Source: Coriobacteriia bacterium (lineage in GTDB: Bacteria > Actinomycetota > Coriobacteriia > Anaerosomatales > SLCP01). From it: a stretch of DNA of 35,055 nt. Location: assembly GCA_030603745.1 (NCBI GenBank), contig JAUVXE010000018.1, positions 1 to 35,055 on the forward strand. Direction: 5' to 3'. The notes beneath the pieces were generated by a model. The model saw nothing but the letters and a program-made list of their open reading frames with translations. It was not told the origin of the DNA and searched no databases. Shown piece after piece: positions 7,364-20,360 of the stretch (position 1 is its first letter; every line of letters starts with the position of its first letter). Position numbers and translations under genes: made by a program.

Positions 7364-7824
7364 GAGCGGGTCTCGGCCAGCGTGCGCTCGAGGACCTCGG
7401 CGAACCGCTCGCGGTCCTCGTCCTCGAACGCGCTCGGCCCCTTCGTGCGCCCCCCGCTGCGGCGATGGACCTGCTCGGCGTGGCGCACCGCGAGCTCCAT
7501 GTCGATGGTCGCCTTGGAGTAGGTGCGGCCGCGCGGGCTGATCGCCACCGCGTCGCGGCCGAGCACCATCGCCGCGAGCCCGATGTCCTGCGTCACGAGC
7601 ACGTCGCCGGGAGCGATGCGCTCGACGATCGCGAAGTCGGCCGCGTCGCGTCCTCCGGAGACCTGGACGCACTCCACGCCCTGCCGCCCGGCGTACCTGC
7701 CGAGGTTCTGGGTCGCGTTCGCCACGAGCACGACCGGCACGCGGTGTCGGCGCGCGACAGCGAGCGCGTCACGCGTCACCGGGCAGGCGTCGGCGTCGAT
7801 GTAGAGGGTCGGGGTGGCGTGCAT
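7360..7824 (-). CDS. UPF0178 (YaiI/YqxD, DUF188) family protein
   Basis: This 154-residue protein matches the UPF0178 family, which has a PIN-like fold: YIDADACPVTRD at the N-terminus, VLVANAT, VTQDIGLAA, ISPRGRTY and a basic RRSGGRTKGP stretch. The aspartates in DADACP and TQD are in the places expected for a PIN-like metal site. The family's biochemical role is not established. The ATG at 7824 is preferred because MHATPTLYIDADACP starts the conserved block. Its stop codon shares bases with the pknB stop (CTAG at 7360-7363), so the two genes meet exactly tail to tail. Confidence 0.88.
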   Translation of the reverse strand: MHATPTLYIDADACPVTRDALAVARRHRVPVVLVANATQNLGRYAGRQGVECVQVSGGRDAADFAIVERIAPGDVLVTQDIGLAAMVLGRDAVAISPRGRTYSKATIDMELAVRHAEQVHRRSGGRTKGPSAFEDEDRERFAEVLERTLAETRS

Positions 7825-7889
7825 GCTCCTCAGTCTACGCCCGCGTCCGGTTCCACGCACGCGTTTTGCGATAGCGATGTTAAGAATCG

Positions 7890-7918
7890 TTGCGTTTGCT
7901 TAGTCCAGTCTGTACTAT
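7890..7918 (+). promoter_or_regulatory. Promoter with 17-bp palindromic operator, copy A
   Basis: TTGCGT (7890-7895), a 17-nt spacer and TACTAT (7913-7918) form a plausible plus-strand promoter in an AT-richer patch. A 17-bp palindrome, TAGTCCAGTCTGTACTA (7901-7917), covers the spacer and most of the -10 box, so a bound regulator would block polymerase. The same palindrome occurs at 12780-12796 and, with one mismatch, at 18572-18588, both at heads of cytochrome operons. No protein gene follows on the plus strand; the transcript would end at the hairpin at 7965-8004. Confidence 0.6.
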
Positions 7919-7924
7919 GGTGTT

Positions 7925-8004
7925 CAGAACCACCCCGGTGGTTCCCGCTCTTCTTCATGTTTAAGGAGACAGCGCTGGGTGAGGGCCCGGCGCTGTCTCC
8001 TTTT
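7925..8004 (+). ncRNA. Candidate short transcript (small RNA) of about 80 nt
   Basis: Between the promoter at 7890-7918 and a strong intrinsic terminator ending in TTTT at 8001-8004 there is room for an RNA of about 80 nt. It would open with a hairpin, GAACCACC/GGTGGTTC (7927-7944), followed by an unpaired pyrimidine-rich stretch (7945-7957) and then the terminator stem. The stretch CTTCTTC (7950-7956) could pair with GAAGAAG just before an ATG of the 7-haem cytochrome, though 7-8 bp is short. The only ATG inside, at 7957, gives a 17-residue peptide running through the terminator with no Shine-Dalgarno. No known RNA family is recognised. Expression is unproven. Confidence 0.4.
7965..8004 (+). 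terminator. Intrinsic terminator
   Basis: A perfect 11-bp stem, GGAGACAGCGC (7965-7975) with GCGCTGTCTCC (7990-8000), closes a 14-nt loop and is followed by TTTT (8001-8004). The U-tract makes it directional on the plus strand; the minus-strand exit reads TTAAAC, which is weaker. It fits the end of the short transcript starting near 7925. Confidence 0.75.
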
Positions 8005-8039
8005 CTGTGAGGGTGGGCCAGAACTTCTCGTGAACGCAC

Positions 8040-8069
8040 GGCGGACCCCCTCGCGTGAGGGGGTCCGCC
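8040..8069 (-). terminator. Hairpin terminator of the 7-haem cytochrome operon
   Basis: GGCGGACCCCCTC (8040-8052) and GAGGGGGTCCGCC (8057-8069) form a perfect 13-bp stem with a 4-nt loop, about 43 nt after the cytochrome stop at 8113. There is no U-tract on either side, which is common for hairpin terminators in GC-rich actinobacteria. It separates the cytochrome transcript from the short plus-strand transcript and the UPF0178 gene. Confidence 0.65.
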
Positions 8070-8112
8070 TCTGAGCCTCGACACCGAGACGCCGGCGCCG
8101 ATCACCCGATCG

Positions 8113-9837
8113 CTACTTGTCGTAGCCGATCGAGCGCTTCTTCATCGGGCCGTGACAGGTCTTACAGACCTTGTCGGTGCCGTCTCCGGTGCTCGGCAGG
8201 AACGCCTCGCCCCAGATGTCGTAGCCGCGATCGCCGTCAGCGGTACCACCGAAGGTGGCCTTGTCGGCGTCGAGTGCGGCCTGACCCGGGTGGGTCGAGA
8301 TCCAGTTGTCGGCACGCTCGTTGAGGTTGCCGGCAGTGGTGTTGCCGCGGCGGTCACGGGCGTTCAGGAGCTTCTTGCCCTGGTCCGGACCGGAGTGCGG
8401 GAAGTCGGAGCGAGCAGCGACCGGTGCGCCCTTCATGTAGGCGTCGTCACGCTGGGCCCACGTCTGGGTCTTCACCGGCATGTCGTTCTTGTAGTAGTGG
8501 TACATCTGCGGCGTCACGTGGCACGAACCGCAGTCGGCACCGGTGAACAGGTTGGTGCCGTCAAGCGGCATGTCGTTGTTGTGGCACATGTAGCACTGGC
8601 TTCCTGCCTCGGCCACGGTGCCGACGCGCAGCATGCTCGGGACGGCGTGCGAGCGGTCGCCGAGCATGTTCTCGCCGGTACGGCCGCTACCCCACTCGGA
8701 ACCGACGTTCTGCTTGCCGGCGATGTTGAGGTTGTGGCAGTCGGCACACCAGAACGACAGCGAGGTCTCGTAGACAGGCATGTCCACGACCCGCTGTGCC
8801 TCGGTGTTGGAGGTCTCGAAGTACTTCCAGGTGGTGTAGCCGGTGGTGTTGGGGCTACCCGCACCGACCGTCTCGACGCTCAAGACGGTGTCCTCGATCG
8901 CCTTCAGGCGGATGTCGAGGGTGTTGCCGGTGTTGGGGTCGTCGGCCGGATCGTAGTAGCCAGGATTCACGCGGCTTTGCGCGCGCGGGAAACCGGAGAG
9001 GTCCGAGACGAGCTTGCCGTCGGAACCGATGGCGCCGGCCTCGACCTGGATGCCGCCGGAGGGGGCGTTGCGCAGGAGCTTGTAGCCCTGCGTGAGCTTG
9101 GTGCCCTCGGCGGGCAGGCCTGCCAGGCCAGACGACGCCGGCTGCCAGATCTGGCGCTGGGCGTTGTGGACCTGGTGGCAGCTCATGCAGCGCAGCGACT
9201 GCGGGCCGACACGGATCGTGCGGCCGCCGTGGACCACGTAGCGCATGAGCTGGTTGCGGTCCTCGAGGTAGCGACGCACGCTGATCTCGATGCTGCCACC
9301 GTCCTGGTTGAAGACCTCCTGGGTCTCGACCCACTGCCAGACGGAGCTGTCGGGGATGTCGGGACCGGAGCCGATGGTGTGACCGTTGGTCGAGTAGATG
9401 CCACCCGTGCCGTTGAAGTAGGCCTCGAGCTCGGAGTGGCGGCCCGCGCCGATGTGGCAGAAGTCACAGGCGTTGTCGGGGTTGTCGACACGCAGGAGTG
9501 CGAACGAACCGGTCGCGCGGTGGACGGCGTGACATACCTGACAGTTGTTCGATGTCGTCGCGTATCCACCGTGCGGGTTGGTCGTGTACACGCCCACGGC
9601 CGGGTCCCACGTCGCCGATGCCTCGAACGAGCGGTACGAGCCCTCGGTCTTGGGAGCCAGATCGTACGCGTCCTGATAGGTCCACTTGGACGCGCCGGTG
9701 GCGTCATAGGTGATCTCGCTGCCGGCGAACGCCGCACCCGCGGTTGCGAGGGCGAAGAGCGCCGTCAGAACGAAGACCAGAACAAGCTTCTTGCTCATCC
9801 TTCTTCCTTCCTGATGATGGTTGTGGGTATTGTGCAT
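8113..9837 (-). CDS. Secreted 7-haem c-type cytochrome
   Basis: This 574-residue exported cytochrome has seven CxxCH sites, in order CQVCH, CDFCH, CMSCH, CADCH, CYMCH, CGSCH and CKTCH. Two extend to CxxCHxxH (CHAVH, CHQVH). The mature part holds ten further histidines, enough for bis-His ligation of every haem. The signal peptide hydrophobic core (about residues 18-37) ends in AFA before GSE; no membrane anchor or lipobox follows, so it is probably released or wall-associated. An AAGGAGGT site 8 nt ahead of the ATG at 9837 favours that start, which adds a His-rich 13-residue n-region. The in-frame ATG at 9798 (MSKKLVLVF) is a good alternative. It is last in an operon with NHL, TPR and GerMN genes, and low haem density resembles filament-type cytochromes, though that is inference. 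Confidence 0.88.
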   Translation of the reverse strand: MHNTHNHHQEGRRMSKKLVLVFVLTALFALATAGAAFAGSEITYDATGASKWTYQDAYDLAPKTEGSYRSFEASATWDPAVGVYTTNPHGGYATTSNNCQVCHAVHRATGSFALLRVDNPDNACDFCHIGAGRHSELEAYFNGTGGIYSTNGHTIGSGPDIPDSSVWQWVETQEVFNQDGGSIEISVRRYLEDRNQLMRYVVHGGRTIRVGPQSLRCMSCHQVHNAQRQIWQPASSGLAGLPAEGTKLTQGYKLLRNAPSGGIQVEAGAIGSDGKLVSDLSGFPRAQSRVNPGYYDPADDPNTGNTLDIRLKAIEDTVLSVETVGAGSPNTTGYTTWKYFETSNTEAQRVVDMPVYETSLSFWCADCHNLNIAGKQNVGSEWGSGRTGENMLGDRSHAVPSMLRVGTVAEAGSQCYMCHNNDMPLDGTNLFTGADCGSCHVTPQMYHYYKNDMPVKTQTWAQRDDAYMKGAPVAARSDFPHSGPDQGKKLLNARDRRGNTTAGNLNERADNWISTHPGQAALDADKATFGGTADGDRGYDIWGEAFLPSTGDGTDKVCKTCHGPMKKRSIGYDK

Positions 9838-9867
9838 TTCCTCACACCTCCTTCCCTGCACGGATTT

Positions 9868-9896
9868 CCGTCAAGGCCGCCAGGCGGCCGTCACGG
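9868..9896 (-). other. Imperfect hairpin in the leader between NHL and cytochrome genes
   Basis: CCGT (9868-9871) and GGCCGC (9875-9880) pair with GCGGCC (9884-9889) and ACGG (9893-9896), with a 3-nt internal mismatch on each side and a 3-nt loop. It lies in the 85-nt gap upstream of the cytochrome start, just before its strong Shine-Dalgarno. It could be an mRNA processing or stability element that sets cytochrome output apart from the NHL protein. I compared it with the GEMM c-di-GMP/cGAMP riboswitch pattern and found no GCAAACC or GACGCAAAGCC core. Confidence 0.35.
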
Positions 9897-9922
9897 TTTC
9901 GCAAAGAGCCCGATGATCCCCC

Positions 9923-11368
9923 CTACGCGAGACCCGGCTCGGTGATCGCCTCTCCGTCCGGTCCATCCACTTCCAGCACCCCGAACCTCATCTCCCGCAC
10001 CTGTTCCAGGCGCGGGACGCCGGGGAACGCGACGGCCACCCTCCTCAGGCCGACCTTGCCGCGCAACCGCTCCGCGAGTCCCAGGAGCGGGTCCTCGTCC
10101 TCGGCGAGATCGTCGAACTCGACTTCGCGGACCGCATCCGCCAGGCCCTCGTGCGCCTCGAACAGGTCGACGACCGCCTCGGCCGTGCCCGCGGGCACCC
10201 AGATCCGGCGAGCCTGCTCAAGCAGGTCGGGCATCACGCCGAGCGAGTCCGCCCGGCGAAGGCCCGCAGTGTCGGCCACGACCCGGACCGGACGGCGCAG
10301 CAGCGCGAGCATGAGGAGCAGCAGCGCGGCCGGGACGACCCACGGCAGCGCACGCCGGGCGTAGATGCCGGGCGTGGGGGCGGGCGACGGGATGCGGAGG
10401 ATCTGCAGGCGGTCGTTGAAGGTGTCCGCCACCACGAACAGCTCGGGGGAGATCTCCGCGATGCTCGAGGGGTAGTAGAACTGGGCGTCCTGGCGGCCCC
10501 AGGTCCCGTAGGTCGCGACCTGCTCGCCCGCCTGGTTCAGGACCACGATCTCGCCGTTGAAGGCGTCGATCGCGTAGAGCAGTCCGTCGCTGCCGAGGGT
10601 GACGTCCGAGGGCAGGCCGTACGACCGGCTCTGGTCGCGTACCGCGGCGGACTCGTTCTCGATCGGGTCGCCGAGGGTCCAGATCGGCTCGCCCGAAGAC
10701 GTCAGCGCCTGGAAGCGGTAGTTGAGACTGTCCGCGAGGAAGATCGTGCCGTCGTCGGCCACGGCCATCCCCGTGGGGCGGTCGATGCGCCCGGGATCCG
10801 AGCCGAAGCCGGAGAGTTGCCCGGTCTGGTTGCCGTCGAGGTCGCCCACGAGGATGCCGTCCCGCGTGGTGATGAAGAGGCTGTCCCGGGAGAGCGCGAG
10901 TGTCTGGGGGTCGTCGACCTCGAACGAGCGAAGCACGCTCCCGTCCACGTTGTAGATCACCACGCGCGACGGGTCCTTCGAGGTCGTGTAGACGCGCCCG
11001 CGTGGATCGACGACGACGGCGCCGGGATAGCGCAGTGCGCCCTCCACGTTCGCCGGTCCGCCGACCGTGCCCTGGAAGACGCCGCTCGAATCGAAGATCA
11101 CGATGCGGTGCTTGAACGAGTCGGCCACGTAGATCCGGCCCGACCCGTCGACGAACACCTCGGTGGGCCGGTGCAGACGGTCGGGGCCGCTGCCGTAGAC
11201 CGATCTGATGTGCCGATACCCCTCGGTATCCGTACCGGAGGCCGACATGAGAGGCGCGTTGAGGCGCGCCGCGAGGAAGAACAGGGCGGCGGCGGCCACG
11301 AGGAGCAGGGCGAGCGGGATGAGCAGCAGCCGCGCCCGCTTCAGGTCGTTCTGTCCGTTCACGCTCAC
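9923..11368 (-). CDS. Membrane-anchored NHL-repeat beta-propeller protein
   Basis: This 481-residue protein has a transmembrane helix at about 13-33, an extracytoplasmic NHL propeller (about 45-330), a second helix (about 340-360) and a roughly 115-residue C-terminal region likely back in the cytoplasm. The repeats show the usual cadence, for example RPTEVFVDGSGRIYVADSF..RIVIFD, YPGAVVVDPRGRVY, RPTGMAVADDGTIFLADSLNYRFQ and LPSDVTLGSDGLLYAIDAFNGEIVVL. NHL proteins are recurrent neighbours of multihaem cytochrome genes and are thought to help cytochrome assembly or export; here it sits directly upstream of the 7-haem cytochrome. The C-terminal part (VVADTAGLRRADSLG) faintly recalls a PIN-like fold but lacks convincing acidic triads. 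The GTG at 11368 has AAGGG 8 nt upstream; a GTG at 11377 overlaps that site and is less likely. Confidence 0.85.
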   Translation of the reverse strand: MSVNGQNDLKRARLLLIPLALLLVAAAALFFLAARLNAPLMSASGTDTEGYRHIRSVYGSGPDRLHRPTEVFVDGSGRIYVADSFKHRIVIFDSSGVFQGTVGGPANVEGALRYPGAVVVDPRGRVYTTSKDPSRVVIYNVDGSVLRSFEVDDPQTLALSRDSLFITTRDGILVGDLDGNQTGQLSGFGSDPGRIDRPTGMAVADDGTIFLADSLNYRFQALTSSGEPIWTLGDPIENESAAVRDQSRSYGLPSDVTLGSDGLLYAIDAFNGEIVVLNQAGEQVATYGTWGRQDAQFYYPSSIAEISPELFVVADTFNDRLQILRIPSPAPTPGIYARRALPWVVPAALLLLMLALLRRPVRVVADTAGLRRADSLGVMPDLLEQARRIWVPAGTAEAVVDLFEAHEGLADAVREVEFDDLAEDEDPLLGLAERLRGKVGLRRVAVAFPGVPRLEQVREMRFGVLEVDGPDGEAITEPGLA

Positions 11369-11393
11369 GTGCAACACCCTTCGCTCAGTGGGT

Positions 11394-12116
11394 TCACCGG
11401 TCTCCGTGTCCGTCCACGTCCTTCGCGGCCTCGATCTCGCTCTCGCTCACGCCAAGCTCGCGGAGCGCGGCGAGGGCCGTCTCGTTCTCGATGTCGTATC
11501 CGAGGACCGCGAGGTACTCCTCGATCGCCCGGTCGGTGTTGCCGACCTTGCGGTGCGCGTCGGCCAGCGCGATGACCACATAGGTCGCCTCCGGCCCGCT
11601 CGCCAGGGCGCGCTCGAAGGCGTCGACCGCCTCCTCGTAGCGCCCGAGCTCCATCCGGACCTCGCCGAGGTCGTAGTAGACCTCGCGGTAGACGTCGCCG
11701 AGGGAACCGGGGATGCTCCCGGCCTTGCCGAAGGCCTTCTCGGCCCGGTCGAGGTCGCCGAGTCCTCGGTATGCCACGCCGAGCGCGTAGAACGCCTCGA
11801 CCGAGCGGCCGTCCAGCTCGACCGCCTGCTCGGCCTCGGAGTGGGCCTGGCGATAGTCACCGATCGTCGAGAGCGCCAGGCTGAGCTGCCAGCGCGCCTG
11901 CACGTTGGTCGGGTCCTGCTTGATGACCCGCAGGGCGTCGTCGATGATGCGCTCCTCGGCGCTCGCGGGCCCGGTCGGCTCGCTCGTGAGCGCGCCGACC
12001 ACGCGTACGCCGCCGAAGACCGTCACGGCGAACGCCGCCACGAGCGCGACGCGCACCGCCGTCAGCGCGAGCCCGGGGCCATATCCCGGCCGGGTGGTGA
12101 ACGTGAGCTTGCCCAT
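11394..12116 (-). CDS. TPR protein with N-terminal membrane anchor
   Basis: This 240-residue protein has a transmembrane helix at about 14-36, followed by an extracytoplasmic array of about four tetratricopeptide repeats (about 52-215): QARWQLSLALSTIGDYRQAHSEAEQAVEL, EAFYALGVAYRGLGDLDRAEKAF, VYYDLGEVRMELGRYEEAVDAFERAL and VVIALADAHRKVGNTDRAIEEYLAVL. TPRs mediate protein-protein contacts; a scaffold or assembly role for the cytochrome encoded two genes downstream is an inference from position. The ATG at 12116 shares one base with the TGA of the GerMN gene (TGATG), indicating coupled translation. The stop is 25 nt before the NHL gene start. Confidence 0.87.
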   Translation of the reverse strand: MGKLTFTTRPGYGPGLALTAVRVALVAAFAVTVFGGVRVVGALTSEPTGPASAEERIIDDALRVIKQDPTNVQARWQLSLALSTIGDYRQAHSEAEQAVELDGRSVEAFYALGVAYRGLGDLDRAEKAFGKAGSIPGSLGDVYREVYYDLGEVRMELGRYEEAVDAFERALASGPEATYVVIALADAHRKVGNTDRAIEEYLAVLGYDIENETALAALRELGVSESEIEAAKDVDGHGDR

Positions 12117-12715
12117 CAGTCGGTTCCCTCCCCGGCCTTGCGGGTCTCTCCGAGCGACCACGGCCCGTCGTCGAGGCGTACGTCGCCCCAGAGTGTCGCG
12201 ATGTCCTTGCCTTCGGCGGTGCCCTGCGTGCGGCCCTCCACCGTGAACCCGACCCGCTCGATGCCCGGGAACTGGGCCACGGACCGGATGATCGAGACGA
12301 GCGCGATCTGCTGGACCTGCTCGCTCTCGCCCTCGCCGAGGATCCCTGCCGAGAAGTCGACCGTCGCCAGACCGTCTTCGACCGTGACCCCGAGCACCTC
12401 CGCCCTCGGAAGCGTCACCTTCGCGCCGGACGGCAGCTCCTCGGTCGCGAACATGCGGTCGAGCACCTGCCTGAGCGCATCCGTGTCGTCGTCGAGCACC
12501 ACCCGCTCCTCGACGATCGTGTCGCCGGCGGGATAGAAGACCGACACCTCGGATGTGGTGGTGTTGATGAGCTCCTCCGCCGAGGGACCCTCGGTCTCGA
12601 GGATCGAGACCGACTCGGTGTCACGGGCGGCGCATCCGGTCGAGACGATGCCCAGAGCCAGGACGAGCCCCAGGGCGAGCGCCAGGGCCCGTGCAGTGTG
12701 TGAACGGATTCTCAA
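12116..12715 (-). CDS. GerMN-domain lipoprotein
   Basis: This 199-residue lipoprotein has a short basic start, a hydrophobic core (ALALALGLVLALGI) and the lipobox VSTGC. The mature part reads as a GerMN domain: EVSVFYPAGDTIVEERVVL, a helix with ALRQVLDRMF, LPSGAKVTLPRAEVLGVTVEDGLATVDFSAGI and QIALVSIIRSVAQFPGIERVGFTVEG. GerMN domains occur in GerM sporulation proteins and LpqB-type lipoproteins and probably bind wall or protein partners. The TTG at 12715 is preferred (AAGGA 11 nt upstream, normal signal-peptide n-region). An ATG at 12760 would lie only about 10 nt from the predicted transcription start with no usable Shine-Dalgarno. It is the first gene of the 7-haem cytochrome operon. Confidence 0.8.
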   Translation of the reverse strand: MRIRSHTARALALALGLVLALGIVSTGCAARDTESVSILETEGPSAEELINTTTSEVSVFYPAGDTIVEERVVLDDDTDALRQVLDRMFATEELPSGAKVTLPRAEVLGVTVEDGLATVDFSAGILGEGESEQVQQIALVSIIRSVAQFPGIERVGFTVEGRTQGTAEGKDIATLWGDVRLDDGPWSLGETRKAGEGTD

Positions 12716-12767
12716 GGCGGTTCGTGTCCTTCGCTTCGCTGGTTGACGAAACCTTAGCATCCTTAAC

Positions 12768-12804
12768 TTGTCTGTATACTAGTGCAGACTGTACTATTGC
12801 GCAA
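12768..12804. promoter_or_regulatory. Divergent promoters sharing the 17-bp palindromic operator, copy B
   Basis: The palindrome TAGTGCAGACTGTACTA (12780-12796) lies between divergent transcripts. For the minus-strand cytochrome operon, TTGCGC (12804-12799) and TAGTAT (12781-12776) are 17 nt apart. For the plus-strand lipoprotein gene, TTGTCT (12768-12773) and TACTAT (12792-12797) are 18 nt apart. Both promoters use the same DNA face around the operator, so one regulator could control both directions. The palindrome matches copy A at all 14 fixed dyad positions. Boxes were found by eye and are weaker evidence than the operator itself. Confidence 0.65.
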
Positions 12805-12874
12805 CAAGGTATGCTTTCCTTAAGGCCCTCCCCCGGGCCGCACGGACACTCGGATGCGCGACGAGGAGACCTCA

Positions 12875-13354
12875 ATGCGAACCGCTCACCGCAGGATGCT
12901 CGTACTCTGCCTGCTGGCACTCGTGCTGCTCGGCACCACGGTCGGCTGCACCCAGACCCGGGTGCGCTCCATGAGCGAATCGGTGAACGAGGGGGCCTCT
13001 CAGCGCTTCGCCGAGCTCGACCCCGACGAGCGCCAGCGGCTGGAGGAGTTCCTCGAAGGAGAGATCCAGACCGTCTACACCTCGGACACCGGGCTCGCGC
13101 GCGTCTACGGCCAGGTCGCGAACCTCGGCGAGGAGTCCTTCGATGCGGTACAGTTCGAGCTCGTGGCGGAGCTGAAGGCCTCGGCCCGCTCAGATGAGCA
13201 GACGCTGGTGGAGAGCTCGACGTTCAGCGAGTCGGTGGGCGACTTCGTGGTCGAGCGCCTCGGCCCCGGCGACATCGAGACCTTCGACGTGCAGACGTCG
13301 GTGCGCCCGGGAGACACCAAGGTGCTGCGTGTGCGTGTCAAGGGCGTGCGGTAG
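12875..13354 (+). CDS. Lipoprotein with FxLYD-like domain, divergent from the cytochrome operon
   Basis: This 159-residue lipoprotein starts MRTAHRR, then a hydrophobic core (LVLCLLALVLLGTT) and lipobox TVGC. The mature half opens with a charged helical stretch (RFAELDPDERQRLEEFLEGE). It then has a beta-rich segment, LARVYGQVANLGEESFDAVQFELVAEL through PGDIETFDV, which has the layout of FxLYD domains (a G-x-V-x-N strand, then a strand pair and a PGD-x-x-x-F turn). FxLYD domains are extracellular beta-sandwiches of uncertain function. GAGGAG at 12863-12868, 6 nt upstream, supports the ATG at 12875. Its promoter overlaps the copy B palindrome, so it belongs to the same predicted regulon as the cytochromes. 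Confidence 0.75.
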   Translation: MRTAHRRMLVLCLLALVLLGTTVGCTQTRVRSMSESVNEGASQRFAELDPDERQRLEEFLEGEIQTVYTSDTGLARVYGQVANLGEESFDAVQFELVAELKASARSDEQTLVESSTFSESVGDFVVERLGPGDIETFDVQTSVRPGDTKVLRVRVKGVR

Positions 13355-13435
13355 GGCCGACGTCGAGGCCGGGTGGGCCGATGCCGGTGCGGTCTGCCAG
13401 CCGGGCCGGCACAGGCCAGAGCCTGACGACCAGGC

Positions 13436-14170
13436 CTACCGCTCCTCCGCCGTCGCCGTGGGCCGCGAGACGGCCAGGCCGCGCAGCATCATCATGCAGC
13501 CAGCGGTGATGGTGATCGCGCCCATCATGCGGTGCATCTGCACCGGCAGCCCGAGCACCCTGACGACGTCCGGGTAGCCCGTGGCCACCCCTCCCGCGAG
13601 CACCGCGTAGGCCGCCATGCCGACGGCCGCCACGCTCGCCCCGGCGAAGCACCGCTCCAGGCCGAGGAGTCGAGAGCGCGCAGCGACCTTCCCGAACGCG
13701 ACCGCTGACAGCAGCCCGCCCGGCAGGCCGAGCAGGAGCCGCGCCGCGCGCTCGGCTCCCTGGACCGAGCCGAGGGAGGCCTCCTCGGCGAAGAGGGCCG
13801 CCAGGCCCGCGGCGAGCGCGACCGAGGCGATCAGGCCGAGGTAGACGAACGAGCGGAACGACGCGCGGTCCTCGATCAGCACCGACAGCCCGAACCAGAG
13901 GAGCGCGAGGAACGACAGCGCGAGCAGCGTGAGCCTCACCGCCGCGAGCGGGCCGGTGGGGTCCGCTGGGATCCCGGGCACCCGGAGGACGGCGTCGACG
14001 AGGTCCGAGAGCCCGTGGGTGACGCCGAACACGATGAGGATGCCGAGGTGGCTCGCGATGCCGAGCTTGGCCGTGCGCTCGATGCCCGCCCACAGCGCGC
14101 CCGCCATGACGAGGAACGCGCCCCCGTAGATCAGGAAGATCGCGATCATCATGGCGTCGCCGACGTTCAT
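13436..14170 (-). CDS. Polytopic membrane protein, about seven helices, unknown function
   Basis: This 244-residue, strongly hydrophobic protein has about seven predicted helices and short charged loops, with a polar tail (RPTATAEER). Histidines fall in or near helices: SHLGILIVFGVTHGLSDL (His43, His53) and VQMHRMMG near residue 215. The GVTHGLSDL stretch resembles the membrane sensor region found ahead of some bacterial histidine kinases. The histidines would also suit quinone or haem b binding; neither is shown. The ATG overlaps the last codons of the PadR-DUF4388 gene by 4 nt, so the two are translated together at the end of the 12/13-haem cytochrome operon. It faces the FxLYD lipoprotein gene; I see no clear terminator in the 81 nt between them. 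Confidence 0.65.
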   Translation of the reverse strand: MNVGDAMMIAIFLIYGGAFLVMAGALWAGIERTAKLGIASHLGILIVFGVTHGLSDLVDAVLRVPGIPADPTGPLAAVRLTLLALSFLALLWFGLSVLIEDRASFRSFVYLGLIASVALAAGLAALFAEEASLGSVQGAERAARLLLGLPGGLLSAVAFGKVAARSRLLGLERCFAGASVAAVGMAAYAVLAGGVATGYPDVVRVLGLPVQMHRMMGAITITAGCMMMLRGLAVSRPTATAEER

Positions 14171-15744
14171 CGGGCAGTCCCCCTCCTGCCCTCGCCCGCA
14201 AGCCGGGTCTCGAGCGCGCGCAGCGCGGGCTCCGGCAGTGCCGATGCCTTCACCAGCACCTCCGCCTGTGCCAGCGGGAGCTGAGAGGCGAACCCTCCGA
14301 GGACGTCGGTCACGAACACCTCGCCGAGGAGCGCCTCGACCGCGTCGAGGCGTCGCTCGATGAACTCGCACCCGGCCATGGCCACGGCACCCCTCGCGTA
14401 GGGGAAGTCACAAGCGGCCAGGTCGCTCCCGTCGAGCGGGAATCGGAGAGGCTGCTCGCCTCCCTGCGGCTCCGCGGTCGCCTCGGCCAGACGCGCAGCG
14501 GCACCCGTTCCCGCGAACAGCGTCACCGCGTCGGCCCAGCGCTGCGCGTAAGCGGCGATCGCGAGCACGAGGTCCCGCTTGTCGCGCCCGACGCGGACGA
14601 CCCAGCCGATCGCCCAGAGCGGGAAGGCGGTCCGAACGATGTGCGCCTCGTCCGCCCCGAGTCTCCGCGCGAGCTCAGGTACGGTCTTGACCCCGTCGAG
14701 GACGGCGAGGAGCGCGGTCTCGTCGTCGGTCAGGTCGAGCCGGAGGCTGTGGCTCCTCAACCCTTCATGCATGCCGAGGAGGGTCTGGGGGTCGGGGAGC
14801 AGGTGCTCGAACGCCGTCGAGGCGGCCACCCCCCGGCAGCCTTTGAGGATCACGAGGTCGAGCTCGTCATCGACCCGTGTGAAGCCGTCAGGGACCTCGT
14901 CGGCGGGCACGAACTCGTACTCGCCTGTCCGCGAGGTGAAACAGTGACGGAGGACGGCCTGCTCTTCGAGGCCGGGAGCGAGCGCCATGCCCTCGATGCG
15001 GCCACGTCGCATGGCCAGCTCAAGACCCACCCCGTTCGCCGAGACCCGGAGTACGCCGCTCCGTCCCGAGGAGGCGAGCGTCTTGAGCACCTCGTGGAGC
15101 ATGGTGTCGGCGAGCGATCCGGCAAGGAGTCCGATCTCATGGCCGAACTGCTCGGTCGAGAGCAGGTCGACGTAGTCCTTGAGGAACGTGAGATTCGCCT
15201 GCAGGATCGCGCGGCGCCTGCCGAGCACGAGGCGAAGCGCGGGGTCGGCCGCCTTCTCGGCCCCGGAGATCGAGGCATCGACCTCGGCCAGCGTGCGCTG
15301 CAGCTGCGCGACCCGCTCCTCCAACGCGTCCTGAGCGACCCCGCGATGGAGCCGGTTCGAATAGAAGAGGGCGACGTCGAACTCGGTCATGGCGTCCTCG
15401 GGCGAGCGGAGCGTCTGCTCGAGCGTCCCGAAGAACGCCTCCCGCCCGAGATCGGTCATCGAGTAGACGGAACGCTCGGGCTTGTCCGCGTGCCGCTCGA
15501 CATGCTTGGTGATCAGACCGTCGCGCTCGAGCCGCCCGAGCGCGTAGTAGACGGAGGTCCGGCCAAGCTTGGCCCACTCGCCGAGGCCCGGCCGCGAGAG
15601 CGTCTCCGAGAGCTCGTAGCCGTGCATCGGCCTGCCGATGAGCAGACCCATGAGCAGGAGGTCGTTGCGGGAGAGCGGCTTGACGGCCGCCCTGGCCTCC
15701 CGACCTGCCTGACCCGCTGCCCGGCTCTTCATCTCGCTCGACAT
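14167..15744 (-). CDS. PadR-family regulator fused to DUF4388
   Basis: This 525-residue protein begins with a PadR winged helix (about residues 22-100): LSRNDLLLMGLLIGRPMHGYEL, GRTSVYYALGRLERDGLI and YSMTDLGREAF. A helical PadR C-terminal dimerisation segment follows (about 105-195). Residues about 205-310 match DUF4388 (LADTMLHEVLKTLASSGRSGVLRVSANGVGLELAMRRGRIEGMAL), common in signalling proteins of deltaproteobacteria and relatives. A further winged-helix-like stretch (about 330-385, TDDETALLAVLDGVKTVPELARRLG) precedes an unassigned C-terminus. PadR proteins repress from short palindromes, so this is the best local candidate to bind TAGTNCAGNCTGNACTA. It is translated from within the cytochrome operon, 15 nt after the 13-haem gene, allowing autoregulation. 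A later ATG at 15732 is possible. Confidence 0.82.
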   Translation of the reverse strand: MSSEMKSRAAGQAGREARAAVKPLSRNDLLLMGLLIGRPMHGYELSETLSRPGLGEWAKLGRTSVYYALGRLERDGLITKHVERHADKPERSVYSMTDLGREAFFGTLEQTLRSPEDAMTEFDVALFYSNRLHRGVAQDALEERVAQLQRTLAEVDASISGAEKAADPALRLVLGRRRAILQANLTFLKDYVDLLSTEQFGHEIGLLAGSLADTMLHEVLKTLASSGRSGVLRVSANGVGLELAMRRGRIEGMALAPGLEEQAVLRHCFTSRTGEYEFVPADEVPDGFTRVDDELDLVILKGCRGVAASTAFEHLLPDPQTLLGMHEGLRSHSLRLDLTDDETALLAVLDGVKTVPELARRLGADEAHIVRTAFPLWAIGWVVRVGRDKRDLVLAIAAYAQRWADAVTLFAGTGAAARLAEATAEPQGGEQPLRFPLDGSDLAACDFPYARGAVAMAGCEFIERRLDAVEALLGEVFVTDVLGGFASQLPLAQAEVLVKASALPEPALRALETRLAGEGRRGTAR

Positions 15745-15759
15745 CCTCTCACCGCCGCC

Positions 15760-16824
15760 CTACCGCCGCGCACGGCGCGCGTCGCGCTGTGCGTGACAAG
15801 TATCGCACGCGGAGCGCGTGTGATGGCACCCGTAGCAGTTCTGTACGAACTCCTGCTCGGCGCCGTGGCAGGCGCGACACACAGGATGCGGCACGAACGT
15901 CCCGCGATACGCCGCGCCATGTTGCCTGACCCACTGCGAGGCGGGCGGATGCGGCGTGGGATACGAGTGGCACCGGTTGCAGAAGGAGCCCGCGTAGCCT
16001 CCGGTCGCGGCCCCGTGCGGGGCGGGAGGCGAGCCGTCCGGCGGGGCGTGACACTCGAAGCAGGCGTCCTGGTCGACGAACCCGTCGTAGAGGTGTCCCC
16101 GGACCCAGTCCGCCGGGTGCGGCATCTCGTACCCGCCGTGGCACGCCACGCACTCGCGCGCGAGCGCCGGCTCGTGACAACCGCCGCACGTGCCGTCGCC
16201 CGCCGCCACGACCGCCGCGTGGGGCCGCCTGTCCGAGACCACGTCGGACGGGTTGCCCGTATGGCAGAGCGAGCAGCGGGTCTCCTCCTCGCCGTCGCCG
16301 TGGCAGCGCATGCACTCCGACATCGTGTGCCGTGTCGCCGCGCGCGCCGTGTCCTGATGGCCCATGCCCGCGTGACAGCGGGAACACGCCACGCCCTGCT
16401 CCCAGAGGTGCGCATGCTCCACCCGGATCCCGCCGAGGACGGCGAACTCGGGCTCGAGCACGCTCCGGTGGCACCGGATGCAGGCCGACTCGTCGATCGG
16501 CCCGACCGACTCCCGGCTCGCGAGCTCGAACGAGTCGCCGACCGCCGCCATCCGCGCCCACGAGGCGCCGAAGCGGGCCGTACCCGTCACTCCGAGCGGG
16601 ACATGGCACGACACGCACTCGACCCCTTCATGAACGACGCTCACCTGGTCGAAGGTCCGGTGACAGGAAACGCAGTTCTGCGACGAGCCTGCCCACGAGC
16701 CGAAGCTCGCGGCGGCGACCACGAATGCACCGAGGACCAAGAAGGCCTTGAGCGCGGTCATGGCACTCTGCCGGCGCGACCAGGAGATCGTGCGCACACG
16801 TGCGACGCGAGTCCTCTCACTCAT
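15760..16824 (-). CDS. Membrane-anchored 13-haem c-type cytochrome
   Basis: This 354-residue protein has an uncleaved N-terminal helix (about residues 22-42) after a basic start, then thirteen CxxCH sites: CVSCH twice, CIRCH, CSRCH, CMRCH, CSLCH, CGGCH, CVACH, CFECH, CNRCH, CRACH, CYGCH and CDTCH. That is one haem per about 24 extracytoplasmic residues. The layout (anchor helix plus paired haem motifs) recalls NapC/NrfH-type and cytochrome c3-like quinol-linked electron carriers. Repeated CHxxxxxPHP...W units (CHGGYEMPHPADW, CHSYPTPHPPASQW) are shared with the 12-haem neighbour. The ATG lies inside the end of that gene (8-nt overlap). Its role as a relay from the membrane through the wall is inferred. 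Confidence 0.9.
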   Translation of the reverse strand: MSERTRVARVRTISWSRRQSAMTALKAFLVLGAFVVAAASFGSWAGSSQNCVSCHRTFDQVSVVHEGVECVSCHVPLGVTGTARFGASWARMAAVGDSFELASRESVGPIDESACIRCHRSVLEPEFAVLGGIRVEHAHLWEQGVACSRCHAGMGHQDTARAATRHTMSECMRCHGDGEEETRCSLCHTGNPSDVVSDRRPHAAVVAAGDGTCGGCHEPALARECVACHGGYEMPHPADWVRGHLYDGFVDQDACFECHAPPDGSPPAPHGAATGGYAGSFCNRCHSYPTPHPPASQWVRQHGAAYRGTFVPHPVCRACHGAEQEFVQNCYGCHHTRSACDTCHAQRDARRARR

Positions 16825-17776
16825 CGAGACCCGCCTTACGGCGCAGGCGCTCGACGCGCTCGGGGGTCAGCCCCGGATGTGCGTGGCGCGTGTGGCAGGC
16901 GTCGCACCCCGAGGAGGCGTGGCACGTGTCGCAGGTCTCGGCGCCGAGCGCCTCCACCTCGGCCGAGTGGACCGCCAGGAAGCCGTCGGGGTGCGGGATC
17001 TCGAGCCCATGACAGCCGGTGCAGAACTCCTCGGCGTGGCATGAGAGGCACTCGGCGGTGCGGGAGGCGACCCCGTGCTCGTTCATCCACTGGTCGCCGT
17101 GCGGGACGGGGACGCCGTGGCACGACTCGCAGCGGGCCGCAGTGTGGCAGGCGGTGCAGGTGCGCAGGTCGCCCGCGCCGTGGGAGGAGACCCACTCCGA
17201 GCCGTGCGTGATCGCGAAGGTCCCCGTACGCTGGCGTGCGTCGCGGGTCACCGTGCCCACGTGACACGTGCCGCAGTCCTGCGAGAGCGCCGAGACCACG
17301 TGACACCTGAGGCACTCGTCCATCGCGATCCCCGGGCGGTCGGCACTCCCGTGAGGTGAGGCGGCGTGGCAGTCGACGCAGGCGTAGCCGCTCCGGTGAG
17401 GGGCCGCGTGGCTCATCCGGATGCCCTCGGCCACGACGACCTCGTCGAGGACGTAGGCGTGGCACTCCAGACAGCGAGCCGAGGCGACGACGGGCCGGGG
17501 GCTGTACGGGACGCCGATCACGGCCGGCGCCATCGCCGCCATGCGGAACCGGAAGTCGACCACCTCGGCCATCGAGTCGCCGCGATGGCACGCGCGGCAC
17601 TCGATGCCGCCGTGCGCGCCGTCCTCGAGCGCGGTGATCGCAGTGGTGTGGCACGCGGAGCACGAGCGCTCCCATCCCGAGAGGGACGTGAACGCGAGCG
17701 TGGCCGCAACGAGCGCCACGAGGACCGCGGCGAGCACCGGGCCGATGCTCCTGATCAGCGCGTCGCTACTCCGCAC
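16817..17776 (-). CDS. Membrane-anchored 12-haem c-type cytochrome
   Basis: This 319-residue protein has an N-terminal anchor helix (about residues 9-30) and twelve CxxCH sites: CSACH, CRACH, CLECH, CVDCH, CLRCH, CGTCH, CTACH, CESCH, CLSCH, CTGCH, CDTCH and CDACH. Two CHGxxxPHxDxF/W units (CHGVPVPHGDQW, CHGLEIPHPDGF) match those of the 13-haem protein, so the two probably arose by duplication. The GTG start at 17776 overlaps the preceding gene by 11 nt and its own end overlaps the 13-haem gene by 8 nt, so the three are translated as a coupled block. A likely function is electron transfer between the quinone pool and outer carriers; no enzyme-type catalytic motif is seen. Confidence 0.9.
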   Translation of the reverse strand: MRSSDALIRSIGPVLAAVLVALVAATLAFTSLSGWERSCSACHTTAITALEDGAHGGIECRACHRGDSMAEVVDFRFRMAAMAPAVIGVPYSPRPVVASARCLECHAYVLDEVVVAEGIRMSHAAPHRSGYACVDCHAASPHGSADRPGIAMDECLRCHVVSALSQDCGTCHVGTVTRDARQRTGTFAITHGSEWVSSHGAGDLRTCTACHTAARCESCHGVPVPHGDQWMNEHGVASRTAECLSCHAEEFCTGCHGLEIPHPDGFLAVHSAEVEALGAETCDTCHASSGCDACHTRHAHPGLTPERVERLRRKAGLDE

Positions 17777-18506
17777 GGCTCACGGTCCCTCCTCCGCCGA
17801 GGACGAGTCCGGCGACCTCCTCGGCCGATGAACTCAAGAGCTCGAGAGGCCGTTGCGCCGGGACGACGTTGGTGAAGGTCGCCTCGACGGTGTAGACGAG
17901 ATCGCCCTCGGCCCAGCCGAGGTAGTAGATGCGCAGGTCGTCGGTGTGGCCGACCTCCGCCGGCACCCCGTCCACCGCCACAGTGGCACGGCCCGCGGGA
18001 TAGCGCTCGTCCGCCCGGCGGGCGGGCTCCACGGTCGCGTCGAGCGCGCTTGCGACGCGAGTGACCTGGACGTAGACGACGAGCGGGGTGTCGATCTTGC
18101 GCTCGTCGTCGATAGGGTTGAAGAAGGCCTCGACGCGCGAGCCCGCCGTTCCCGGAACGGGTTGCGGACCCTGGACGACCCAGCCGTCGGCCGCTCCCGG
18201 TATCACCGCGATGGAAAGCTCATCCTGCTCGTCCGGGCCGGTGTCGATCTCGAGCAGCGCGTCGGATGCGGCGGAGTCACGCGTGGCGAGGAGCGCTCGC
18301 GCGGCCGCCGCGAGCTCCTCGCGCTCGTCCCCCGACTCGATGAAGAGGGTGGTCACCCAGAGCAGGCCGGCGAGGGCGAGCACGCCCACGGCGAACGCGC
18401 GCCGCGAAGGGGTGCGCAGGCGAAAGCGGCCCCGGTGCATGCGCAACCGCGGACCGGTATCTCCGGAGCCGTTCCTGGTTCCGAACGTCTGGCCGAACGG
18501 CCGCAT
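17766..18506 (-). CDS. Single-pass anchored extracytoplasmic protein, first gene of the 12/13-haem operon
   Basis: This protein has up to 246 residues, a basic N-terminus, one helix (about residues 36-54, AFAVGVLALAGLLWVTTLF) and an extracytoplasmic domain of about 190 residues containing ERKIDTPLVVYVQVTRVASALDA, VAVDGVPAEVGHT and YYLGWAEGDLVYTVEATFTNVVP. No cysteine pair or haem motif is present, and I do not recognise the family. The ATG at 18506 lacks a clear Shine-Dalgarno; an ATG at 18440 (MHRGRFRLR) is also possible. It ends 11 nt inside the 12-haem gene. It begins 66 nt downstream of the copy C palindrome, so it probably heads the operon. Confidence 0.7.
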   Translation of the reverse strand: MRPFGQTFGTRNGSGDTGPRLRMHRGRFRLRTPSRRAFAVGVLALAGLLWVTTLFIESGDEREELAAAARALLATRDSAASDALLEIDTGPDEQDELSIAVIPGAADGWVVQGPQPVPGTAGSRVEAFFNPIDDERKIDTPLVVYVQVTRVASALDATVEPARRADERYPAGRATVAVDGVPAEVGHTDDLRIYYLGWAEGDLVYTVEATFTNVVPAQRPLELLSSSAEEVAGLVLGGGGTVSRAE

Positions 18507-18571
18507 CGAGCAACACCGCCGAGATCCCTGTGGGAGGCCGAGCCGGGATCCCGTGCGGGAACACCCGGTCG

Positions 18572-18588
18572 TAGTCCAGTCCGTACTA
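18572..18588 (-). promoter_or_regulatory. 17-bp palindromic operator, copy C
   Basis: TAGTCCAGTCCGTACTA matches the dyad TAGTNCAGNCTGNACTA at 13 of 14 fixed positions (C for T in the right CTG). It lies in the AT-richer strip just upstream of the minus-strand operon beginning at 18506. Promoter boxes here are less convincing than at copies A and B. On the minus strand only a weak TACGAC -10-like box is visible behind the repeat of TTAAG motifs (18590-18603). Confidence 0.6.
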
Positions 18589-18646
18589 ACTTAAGCACCT
18601 TAATCTTGCGTGCGACAGGGACGCCCGTCAAGCGGCGGACGGCGGA

Positions 18647-19711
18647 CTACTCGATCACGACCCCGTGACCGGGCGGGACCACCTGGATCCACGTGCGGCC
18701 GACCGCGAGCGGGAACGGCTCGCCATCCGCGGTCTCGAAGCGCGGCGGCGCGTCACGGAAAGCGCTCCAGCGCACGTCGTAGCGGCGGCCCTCGCGCAGC
18801 ACCACCGCGTCGCCCTCGGCATCCAGGCGGATGTCGAGCACGGGCGAGCCTGCGGTGTCGCGCATGCCGGTCTCGCGGCTCTCGGCGTAGAGGATGATCA
18901 CGTTGGCGGCGGCGTAGCGCTCCGAGGAGCCCTCGTCGGCGTGCGGGGCGCCACCCACCTCGCGCTGCCAGCGACCGGCCTCGGCGTCCCACGTCCAGCG
19001 CGCGTCGTTGTTCCCGGCGAAGGGCACGAGCACGCTCGCGACGGCGGGTGCCACGGCAGCCTCACCGGCGGCCTCCCCCTCGGCGGCGGCATCCTCGCCC
19101 CCGGCGGGTCCGGCGCCGGGCACCGGGCCGAAGAGCCACGCGCGCGGGCCGCCCTCGGCGGAGAACCCGGCGCCGGCGGACGCGGCGCGCAGCGCGGCCA
19201 CGCTCGAGTAGACGTCGTGAGGCGCCGAGCGGGCGGGGTCGCGCTCGTAGAGGGCGGCGTTGCGCTCCATGCCGAGGTCGTCGATGCCGGCCTCGGCGAT
19301 GCGGTCGCGGACCGTCTGGTTCGCGCCGGAGTAGGCGAAGAGCGCGTCGTACTGGGGCACGAGGTAGACGTCGGAGAGACGGGCGCTGCGGATCGGGCCC
19401 ACGCGGTCGGGCGCCGAGGAGTGGAAGATGGCGTTGAAGCGCGGGATGCCGCCCTCGGCGATGGTCTCGTAGACGACGTCTGCCTCGGCGAGACCGGCCT
19501 GCGGGCGTGCCTGCGGCGAGTTCTCGACCTTGACGGAGACGGCCCGCGCGCGGACCGCCGCCTCGTCGGGCGCGACCTCCCCGGTGAGCGGCCAGGTGAC
19601 CGGCTCGGGCTCGGGCGTGAGCGCGACATCGTCGCCAAAGAGCAGGAAGGCGGCGAGCGCGCCGATCGCGAGCATCGCCACCGCGGCTCCGAACTTCACC
19701 GCGCGGTTCAT
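18647..19711 (-). CDS. DUF3048 (YerB-like) exported protein
   Basis: This 354-residue protein has an N-terminal hydrophobic segment (about residues 6-24, FGAAVAMLAIGALAAFLLF) that acts as signal or anchor; there is no lipobox cysteine. The DUF3048 signature is clear: RAVSVKVENSPQARPQAGLAEADVVYETIAEGGIPRFNAIFHS, VGPIRSARLSDVYLVPQYDALFAYSGA, DVYSSVAALRAA and the C-terminal QVVPPGHGVVIE. An Ala/Gly/Glu-rich insert (about 205-245) interrupts the domain. Family function is unknown; members are secreted and likely act at the wall. AAGGAG 5 nt before the ATG at 19711 fixes the start. A TATCCT -10-like box lies at 19757-19752. It is divergent from the MarR gene. Confidence 0.85.
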   Translation of the reverse strand: MNRAVKFGAAVAMLAIGALAAFLLFGDDVALTPEPEPVTWPLTGEVAPDEAAVRARAVSVKVENSPQARPQAGLAEADVVYETIAEGGIPRFNAIFHSSAPDRVGPIRSARLSDVYLVPQYDALFAYSGANQTVRDRIAEAGIDDLGMERNAALYERDPARSAPHDVYSSVAALRAASAGAGFSAEGGPRAWLFGPVPGAGPAGGEDAAAEGEAAGEAAVAPAVASVLVPFAGNNDARWTWDAEAGRWQREVGGAPHADEGSSERYAAANVIILYAESRETGMRDTAGSPVLDIRLDAEGDAVVLREGRRYDVRWSAFRDAPPRFETADGEPFPLAVGRTWIQVVPPGHGVVIE

Positions 19712-19817
19712 GGGGACTCCTTCTCCTGGTCGACAGGGGCCGTCACCTTCAAGGATACCCGCTCGATGCGCGGCGTGCGCGGCCCGGTCGCCGTGCGTGC
19801 CCCTTGCGCTGGCGCAC

Positions 19818-19859
19818 ACTCCTTCGTATGCTAACCATATCGTTAGCATACGAAGGAGT
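19818..19859. promoter_or_regulatory. Perfect 18-bp inverted repeat, likely MarR operator
   Basis: ACTCCTTCGTATGCTAAC (19818-19835), a 6-nt spacer CATATC and the exact reverse complement (19842-19859) form an 18-bp inverted repeat between the divergent DUF3048 and MarR genes. The inner CGTATGCTAAC/GTTAGCATACG core is AT-rich for this genome and is the natural MarR binding site. The right arm also supplies the AAGGAG ribosome-binding site of the MarR gene, so the same structure in mRNA could hide it. Confidence 0.75.
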
Positions 19860-19871
19860 TGAGCACCCACC

Positions 19872-20360
19872 TTGCAGACCCCCGACCCCCGCCCCAGGCT
19901 CGCACCGCACAACGCCGACATCGGCTACCTGCTCAACCGGGTCACCCGCCGACTGCGCCTCAGGCTCGCCGACGCGCTCGCCGACACCGGCCTCACCCCG
20001 CAGCAGGCCGCCGTGCTCCTCGCCCTTGCGCGGAGCGACGCCGGGCGACTCACCCCGAGCGCCATCGCGATCGCCATCGACGCCGACCAGGCAACCGCGA
20101 GCGGCCTGCTCGAGCGTCTCTCCCGCGACGGCTGGCTCGAGTCGGGTCCCAACCCCTCGGACCGCCGGTCGCGGCTGATCACCCTCACCCCCGCCGCCGA
20201 GGAGGCCGTCCCCCGCGTCCTGGCCGCTGCCGACGCCGTGACCGCCGAGGCCACCGCCTCGCTCACCGCCGAGGAGGTCTCGACGCTCACCGCGCTCCTC
20301 TCGAGACTCGCCGTACCCGGCGAGCCGACGGCCTCGGCCCGAGCGGAGGCAGCGCGATGA
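19872..20360 (+). CDS. MarR-family transcriptional regulator
   Basis: This 162-residue winged-helix regulator has GYLLNRVTRRLRLRLADAL as dimerisation helix, LTPQQAAVLLALA, a recognition region AIAIDADQATASGLLERLSRDGWLE and the wing NPSDRRSRLITLTPAAEE with the DRRS motif typical of MarR. It most likely autoregulates through the perfect inverted repeat just upstream. The TTG at 19872 is the first usable start in frame (a TGA lies at 19860-19862); GGAG is 13 nt upstream, slightly long. Its TGA overlaps the ATG of the NmrA-like gene by 4 nt, so regulator and enzyme are co-expressed. The inducer is unknown, perhaps an electrophile or phenolic compound given the partner enzyme. Confidence 0.88.
   Translation: MQTPDPRPRLAPHNADIGYLLNRVTRRLRLRLADALADTGLTPQQAAVLLALARSDAGRLTPSAIAIAIDADQATASGLLERLSRDGWLESGPNPSDRRSRLITLTPAAEEAVPRVLAAADAVTAEATASLTAEEVSTLTALLSRLAVPGEPTASARAEAAR

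Follow-up and report, generated by a model that had tools for sequence, protein, structure and literature searches.

In the PadR family, most described members of which are repressors, regulons are already known in which an inverted repeat marks the target promoters as well as that of padR. cdPadR1 of Clostridioides difficile is described as an autoregulator whose own promoter contains the inverted TACT/AGTA repeats that it binds (PMC5050560), and the operator of PadR, LmrR and LadR is given as ATGT-N8/10-ACAT (PMC4517056, PMC3506622). Here, we describe a 17-bp palindrome, TAGTNCAGNCTGNACTA, that occurs three times in a multihaem cytochrome cluster of a Coriobacteriia bacterium of the order Anaerosomatales (assembly GCA_030603745.1, contig JAUVXE010000018.1, positions 1 to 35,055, the whole stretch being referred to hereafter as the window). 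We consider it likely that the dyad is the operator of a PadR protein fused to a DUF4388 domain (PadR-DUF4388), encoded in the same cluster, which would act as the local and autoregulated repressor of a multihaem-cytochrome regulon, probably one of extracellular electron transfer.

The locus resembles the described systems in several respects. As with cdPadR1, the inverted repeat would be bound in the promoter of the PadR gene's own transcription unit, binding in the window being predicted: site 3 stands before the operon that includes padR, and in a relative, the genome G033, a copy (4440) stands before padR. The half-sites differ, TACT-N11/12-AGTA in cdPadR1 versus TAGT-N9-ACTA in the window, and so does the scope, with 200 motif matches predicted for cdPadR1, broad in function, versus a compact cytochrome regulon in the window (PMC5050560). 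A short interrupted inverted repeat in target promoters, and for LmrR in that of the regulator gene too, is likewise described for the canonical PadR, LmrR and LadR. Two cultivated Anaerosomatales strains carry 18 and 17 multihaem cytochromes, and one of them grows with Fe(III); multihaem clusters of the order are assigned to Fe(III) reduction, and one has a linked Rex-type regulator gene (PMC9686372). Like the window, those clusters hold multihaem genes of Gram-positive actinobacteria, but the linked regulator is Rex there and PadR-DUF4388 here, and the accessible portion of the report describes no operator (PMC9686372). Titles and abstract openings of the open-licence literature yielded no PadR protein linked to multihaem cytochromes, and print may hold more. 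To our knowledge, hardly anything is known of how Gram-positive subsurface bacteria time the building of many-haem electron conduits. The present analysis gives a candidate regulator, a DNA site and a list of candidate targets, among which is the second cytochrome locus of a relative; one purified protein and some short DNA fragments would suffice to test its predictions, with no need to grow the organism.

The three copies (sites 1 to 3, Table 1) have zero, zero and one mismatch to TAGTNCAGNCTGNACTA, match 14, 14 and 13 of the 14 fixed dyad positions, respectively, and are the only matches to this pattern in the window at up to two mismatches. Dinucleotide-shuffled versions of the window contained 0.01 matches on average, and none of 100 contained three. 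The original prediction had named these three copies, which the window scan and a scan of the whole assembly (2,141,497 bases in 28 contigs, at the same threshold) both confirmed, the latter adding no other. Their number alone is unremarkable, given that the reversed control pattern has 10 matches assembly-wide; the remarkable feature is their confinement to intergenic positions within 11 kb. The random scatter inside genes that had been named as a sign against the prediction is therefore not what the assembly contains. Site 1 lies between a DUF188 gene (7360-7860, minus strand) and the 3' end of the 7-haem cytochrome gene, and site 3 between the start (18506, minus strand) of the gene for a protein of 246 amino acids (aa) and the 3' end of a DUF3048 gene (18647-19921, minus strand). 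Gene calls, with domains taken from Pfam, agree with the regulon of ten genes that had been placed behind the three sites. The operon behind site 3 runs, on the minus strand, from the 246-aa protein through a 12-haem cytochrome, a 13-haem cytochrome and PadR-DUF4388 to a further gene, and neither its first nor its last gene has a Pfam match.

Conservation was followed through 69 genomes of the order, the window's own (G000) and 68 others. With the strict pattern and no mismatch, the only non-self copy was that of G033, which belongs to a different family; there it separates a lipoprotein gene from a GerMN-TPR pair, both related to genes of the window (46% and 43% identity). When the two divergent promoters are aligned, TAGTnCAGACTGTACTATTnCGCAA is kept at 23/25 columns, versus 48/96 ungapped columns outside it, and no other stretch of 25 columns exceeds 14 matches. 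This result, obtained with the strict pattern, is a non-circular test of the dyad, and instead of the poor conservation at orthologous promoters that would have spoken against the prediction, the dyad is kept in other families. Among the 68 other genomes, lipoprotein orthologues (E<=0.001) occur only in G033 and G052, and in the latter the gene is cut at a contig end, so that its divergent promoter is unreadable. GerMN relatives (E<=1e-6) are present in 17 genomes besides G000 and G033; the best strict match at their loci has three mismatches, a lipoprotein orthologue exists among them only in G052, on a different contig from its GerMN match, and these 17 loci were not counted as orthologous promoters. 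In 395 other genomes of the phylum, four exact non-self matches to the strict pattern were found, one of which (G447) precedes the start codon side of a PadR gene (PF03551, E 6e-12) by 27 bp. Two others, in G200 inside an open reading frame (ORF) and in G227 between convergent gene ends, were taken as chance, as were the one-mismatch strict matches in two genomes of the order (G024 and G027), one of which lies just past a long gene, inside a small ORF, and the other on a stop codon.

The distribution of the sites follows that of the regulator. A search with PadR-DUF4388 gave some match at E<=1e-5 in 37 of the 69 genomes, and full-length orthologues (E below 1e-60) only in G000, G033, G052 and G029; the three orthologues reached E-values of 1.4e-102, 1.1e-101 and 9.3e-69, and the next match 2.8e-20. 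A search of genome contigs with the PadR alignment returned 21 loci and no new orthologue, the only two that match most of the query (L085 and L086) being those of G033 and G029. Multihaem cytochromes are encoded near the PadR orthologue in all four genomes, the nearest in G029 being a 7-haem gene. A relaxed pattern, TAGTNC-N5-GNACTA, was drawn up after the sites of G033 were known; site 1 has all 10 of its fixed positions, and at up to one mismatch it stands before cluster genes five times in G033, twice in G029 and once in G052 (Table 1). Exact copies number 15 in the order, nine of them in the four PadR genomes (three in G000, four in G033, one each in G029 and G052), and the remaining six are single copies among the other 65 genomes, five of which lie inside script-called ORFs. 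Without the window's genome, 6/12 exact relaxed matches fall in the three PadR genomes that make up 4.5% of the order's DNA (binomial 6e-6, calculated with rounded genome sizes and partly circular because the pattern postdates the reading of G033).

Across genomes, then, the palindrome reads TAGTNC-N5-GNACTA, or roughly TAGT[C/A]CA-N3-TG[G/T]ACTA. In 15 oriented site-gene pairs, representing 12 distinct sites, columns 1, 3, 4, 14, 15 and 17 are invariant, which is partly by construction, the sites having been chosen at up to one mismatch, and the centre is nearly free, columns 8-10 (0.08-0.30 bit) being the least conserved part. Of the consensus first proposed, the outer dyad stands, but the central CAG/CTG was too strict, as it is preferred across genomes and not fixed. 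A sixth copy in G033, an exact one, lies on another contig (C34, locus L113) between a 12-haem cytochrome gene and an operon for a 3-haem cytochrome, NrfD and multihaem proteins, which is how a regulon extending past the cluster would look. Judged by the one operator copy that it shares, this multihaem locus is a likely further target. The gene behind the G033 site at 10292 leaves its contig after 49 codons, within which there is no haem motif, and from its position and signal peptide it should be a candidate 7-haem cytochrome gene. At L113 (2494-9498), the 12-haem cytochrome is NapC/NirT-like, and the 3-haem cytochrome is accompanied by an NrfD-like protein and by three ORFs (9, 8 and 9 haem motifs), the second and third of which overlap.

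A second line of evidence came from 44 PadR genes fetched by protein similarity alone, whose 220 upstream nucleotides (nt) were scanned. The outer half-sites, TAGT-N9-ACTA with up to one mismatch, were present upstream of 14/44, compared with a mean of 2.26 in shuffles, none of 200 of which reached 14, and when spacers of 5 to 14 were compared, the count for 9 alone was never attained by the shuffles. For actinobacterial PadR genes the frequency was 13/32, versus 3/146 for the remaining genes of those loci (Fisher 7e-9). The sites, some of which are tandem, differ in their inner letters between PadR branches, as expected if the inner letters determine specificity. These results suggest that several actinobacterial PadR branches use TAGT-N9-ACTA as their operator architecture, which would help the prediction of targets from sequence. 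The co-occurrence of the sites with the PadR-DUF4388 orthologue and the enrichment of the half-sites before PadR genes make this protein, which the original prediction had named only for a binding assay, the best candidate for reading the dyad. Further PadR genes of the order (L045, L047, L048 and L049) are preceded by tandem boxes of the form TGGTACGAATCGTACTA / TAGTACGAACCGTACCA, with starts 17-33 bp apart, and these are probably the operators of another PadR branch.

It is unlikely that the dyad is read instead by the MarR-family protein encoded next to the cluster (19872-20360, plus strand), or by another regulator. The MarR gene is only 1.3 kb from site 3, and MarR proteins also bind short promoter palindromes. 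However, G033, the genome with most sites, has no MarR orthologue at E<=1e-5 (in an assembly about 89% complete), the orthologues of G052 and G029 are on a different contig from the cluster, and the window match nearest to the MarR start (<=2 mismatches) is 555 bp upstream of it (19317, two mismatches); the outer half-sites of the dyad are, besides, enriched before PadR genes.

By its domains, the product of the candidate regulator gene is a member of the PadR family to which DUF4388 and a further helical part have been added. The PadR winged helix-turn-helix (wHTH) domain, PF03551, scores 50.4 bits against a gathering cut-off of 27 (E 2.3e-13) and is present in the three orthologues too. The N-terminal part resembles solved PadR proteins in sequence and may do so in fold, a wHTH with long C-terminal dimerisation helices: the top Foldseek matches are of PadR type (3l9f, 5x11, 8jxk and 8ioi, with E down to 2.2e-5), many of them aligning at a root-mean-square deviation of 18-19 A, and the structure model behind them (mean predicted local distance difference test, pLDDT, 63; predicted template modelling score, pTM, 0.33) is a low-confidence one that gives no firm indication for the C-terminal half. 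That half may include a second winged-helix-like part; in the PadR-DUF4388 of G033 (L037, 4528-6003), residues 337-372 have a weak match to MarR_2 (22.6 bits, below the cut-off of 27). The PATAN/DUF4388 module serves in type IV pilus and phototaxis control, in signalling proteins that are not known to carry a PadR DNA-binding domain, and the window protein shares this module with them. cdPadR1 is a PadR-s2 protein and is not known to carry DUF4388.

The sites probably overlap -10 elements, and such an overlap suggests repression. At site 1 the putative -10 hexamer, TACTAT, overlaps the right half of the palindrome, and TTGCGT-N17-TACTAT recurs identically at the G033 site at 7318; at the place of the GerMN promoter, this divergent promoter of G033 has TTGCGT-N17-TAAGAT, ranked second there. 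In 9/12 sites a half-site continues as ACTAT on one strand or the other. We envisage a PadR dimer on TAGTNC-N5-GNACTA, where ACTAT would be the likely -10 hexamer and bound PadR would exclude RNA polymerase. At site 2, where two putative promoters overlap in antiparallel orientation, a single dimer would lie across both and would thus switch the lipoprotein gene and the GerMN-TPR-NHL-cytochrome operon jointly. Since padR is inside the operon of site 3, and in G033 directly behind its own copy, the protein would repress its own synthesis. A signal sensed by the C-terminal helices or by the DUF4388/PATAN module would release the repressor, whereupon all units, including the short RNA of site 1, would rise. 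With regard to the original claim that the palindrome controls three transcripts, the sites, their clustering, their conservation and their co-occurrence with PadR, together with the half-site enrichment, were computed; from these we infer the control itself, the binding of PadR, repression as opposed to activation, the signal, and the existence and role of the RNA.

It is unlikely that PadR activates the cytochrome units or has a dual role in their regulation. AphA, a PadR-like protein, acts as an activator and, annotated as 'gene activator', is among the sequence relatives of PadR-DUF4388 with a solved structure, and weak promoter matches are what activator-dependent promoters would be expected to show. 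The site, however, seems to lie over the -10 element and the spacer, not upstream of the -35 element, and the putative spacers are of 17-18 nt, not the 19-20 of promoters that MerR remodels from within. A repressor of the iron-dependent DtxR/IdeR type would suit haem proteins, and sites 1 and 2 resemble by eye the 19-bp iron box TTAGGTTAGSCTAACCTAA, with its TTAG...CTAA ends and AG-N-CT centre; we regard it as very unlikely, because the conserved centre of that box is the least conserved part of the 12 sites and because the sites accompany this PadR, whereas DtxR is expected to be widespread. Finally, a non-regulatory AT-rich, promoter-like palindrome, recurring by chance or by duplication of a -10 region, would fit the fact that the assembly has fewer copies of TAGTNCAGNCTGNACTA (3) than of the reversed control (10), but is extremely improbable for an element whose copies are all intergenic in one cluster, that is kept across families in diverged DNA and that recurs at a second cytochrome locus.

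Several observations weigh against PadR-DUF4388 as a repressor acting at this dyad. The canonical ATGT-N8-ACAT differs from it in sequence and spacing, and 0/3 window sites come within one mismatch; with the canonical half-sites missing, the window dyad would have to be a variant operator. Downstream of the 44 PadR genes, as a control, TAGT-N9-ACTA was found in 5/44; these genes are interrelated, which makes the P-values too optimistic on independence; and of the 13 loci beyond the 31 first tested (12 non-actinobacterial and one actinobacterial), 1/13 had a site. The 7-haem cytochrome of the window has no operator copy of its own at up to two mismatches, in contrast to its G029 relative, which has two. 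In G052, the mismatch of the site at 5355 falls at an outer position, and of the nine exact relaxed copies in the PadR genomes, eight are the sites described here and the ninth (G052, C4:781) lies away from cytochromes. The C34 copy of G033, although on a separate contig, need not lie far from the cluster in the genome. The promoter hexamers are weak overall, with 5-8/12 consensus letters as the best of several offsets (5/12 at site 3), and a stricter sigma-70-like promoter scan of 7800-18700 gave none at its cut-off, which makes the -10 overlap tentative, above all at site 3.

Behind site 1, the original prediction had placed a short terminated transcript, which is likely, though unconfirmed. 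The stretch in question folds strongly (-47.2 kcal/mol, z -5.88), and its long hairpin is followed by TTTTCTGT, part of the T-run pairing with the stem; the terminator scan did not list this long hairpin but listed a smaller one at 7937-7949. The surrounding 3 kb gave no match to any Rfam family at E<=1. The sequence is not clearly conserved in the order, the best outside matches being pieces of 15-40 bases at E 0.004 or worse, and a lower value, E 0.001, came from the hairpin matching itself on the opposite strand. A putative short RNA of different sequence is present in G033 (L037, 808-915), between the 5S rRNA, which it directly follows, and a NifU-domain gene; it shares TCTTCTTC before a strong hairpin and has no T-run. 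The shared TCTTCTTC is short and may be due to chance, and the stretch could alternatively be the leader of the NifU-domain gene. When gene starts from the window, from L037 and from L113 were ranked by raw pairing energy, the unpaired stretch of the short RNA paired best with that of padR, at -21.9 kcal/mol, followed by -20.0; such pairing was not seen between the G033 transcript and its own padR, and we treat it as a lead only. A wider scheme would be a long shot: a one-component switch, with PATAN/DUF4388 fused to PadR, in which a Gram-positive regulon for extracellular electron transfer responds by direct derepression to contact or pilus status, or to the state of the electron acceptor outside the cell, and in which the short RNA closes a feedback loop.

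Table 1. Features of the cytochrome cluster and candidate operator sites in genomes carrying the PadR-DUF4388 orthologue (window coordinates unless a genome is named)
Feature	Position	Strand	Remarks
Candidate operator copy 1 (site 1), TAGTCCAGTCTGTACTA	7901..7917	+	Pattern scan; precedes short RNA-like stretch
Candidate operator copy 2 (site 2)	12780..12796	.	Between divergent lipoprotein (+) and GerMN-TPR-NHL-cytochrome operon (-); orthologous copy in G033
Candidate operator copy 3 (site 3)	18572..18588	-	Before cytochrome-padR operon; same first gene in G033 and G052 has one-mismatch copies
Putative short-RNA promoter	7890..7918	+	TTGCGT (7890-7895), 17 nt, TACTAT (7913-7918); 7/12 consensus letters
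Putative short RNA	7919..8006	+	5' hairpin, unpaired CUCUUCUUCAUG stretch, long terminator-like hairpin
7-CXXCH multihaem cytochrome	8113..9861	-	G029 relative, 32% identity, E 7e-63
NHL-repeat protein	9923..11377	-	Pfam
TPR protein	11394..12161	-	Pfam
GerMN (Germane) lipoprotein	12116..12760	-	First gene of divergent operon; Pfam; true start may lie inside
Putative lipoprotein promoter	12768..12797	+	TTGTCT-N18-TACTAT; 8/12
Putative GerMN-operon promoter	12776..12804	-	TTGCGC-N17-TAGTAT; 7/12; antiparallel to lipoprotein promoter over copy 2
Lipoprotein	12854..13354	+	Likely start ATG 12875
Last gene of site-3 operon	13338..14201	-	Aligns with gene after padR in G033 (26%), G052 (30%), G029 (27%)
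Candidate regulator PadR-DUF4388, 525 aa	14167..15744	-	PadR wHTH residues 32-103, DUF4388/PATAN 208-285, helical C-terminus
13-CXXCH multihaem cytochrome	15760..16824	-	Gene call, motif count
12-CXXCH multihaem cytochrome	16817..17776	-	Gene call, motif count
First gene of site-3 operon, 246 aa	17766..18506	-	Relative of G033 1496-2191 (37%, E 3e-30)
G033 site	791		Behind 5S rRNA, before short RNA-like stretch; NifU-domain gene 250 nt on
G033 site	1447		Before relative of 246-aa gene and 11- and 12-haem cytochromes
G033 site	4440		Directly before padR, at beginning of 85-bp gap
G033 site	7318		Divergent lipoprotein/GerMN promoter
G033 site	10292		Before gene cut off by contig end
G052 site	5355		Before relative of same first gene and 12- and 13-haem cytochromes; one mismatch; 15/17 letters as in site 3
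G029 sites	8786 and 8825		Before 7-haem cytochrome

Two further observations are minor. In G132, a genome of the phylum, tandem boxes resembling TAGTCCA..TGGACTA precede an ORF (L033/L114, 9289-9342), two of them found by the scan and a third, between these, by eye; the genes called in the 10 kb examined at this locus include no cytochrome. In the window, a small hairpin with a T-rich, terminator-like match (9779-9801, minus strand) lies over the signal-peptide start of the 7-haem cytochrome and is probably a chance occurrence.

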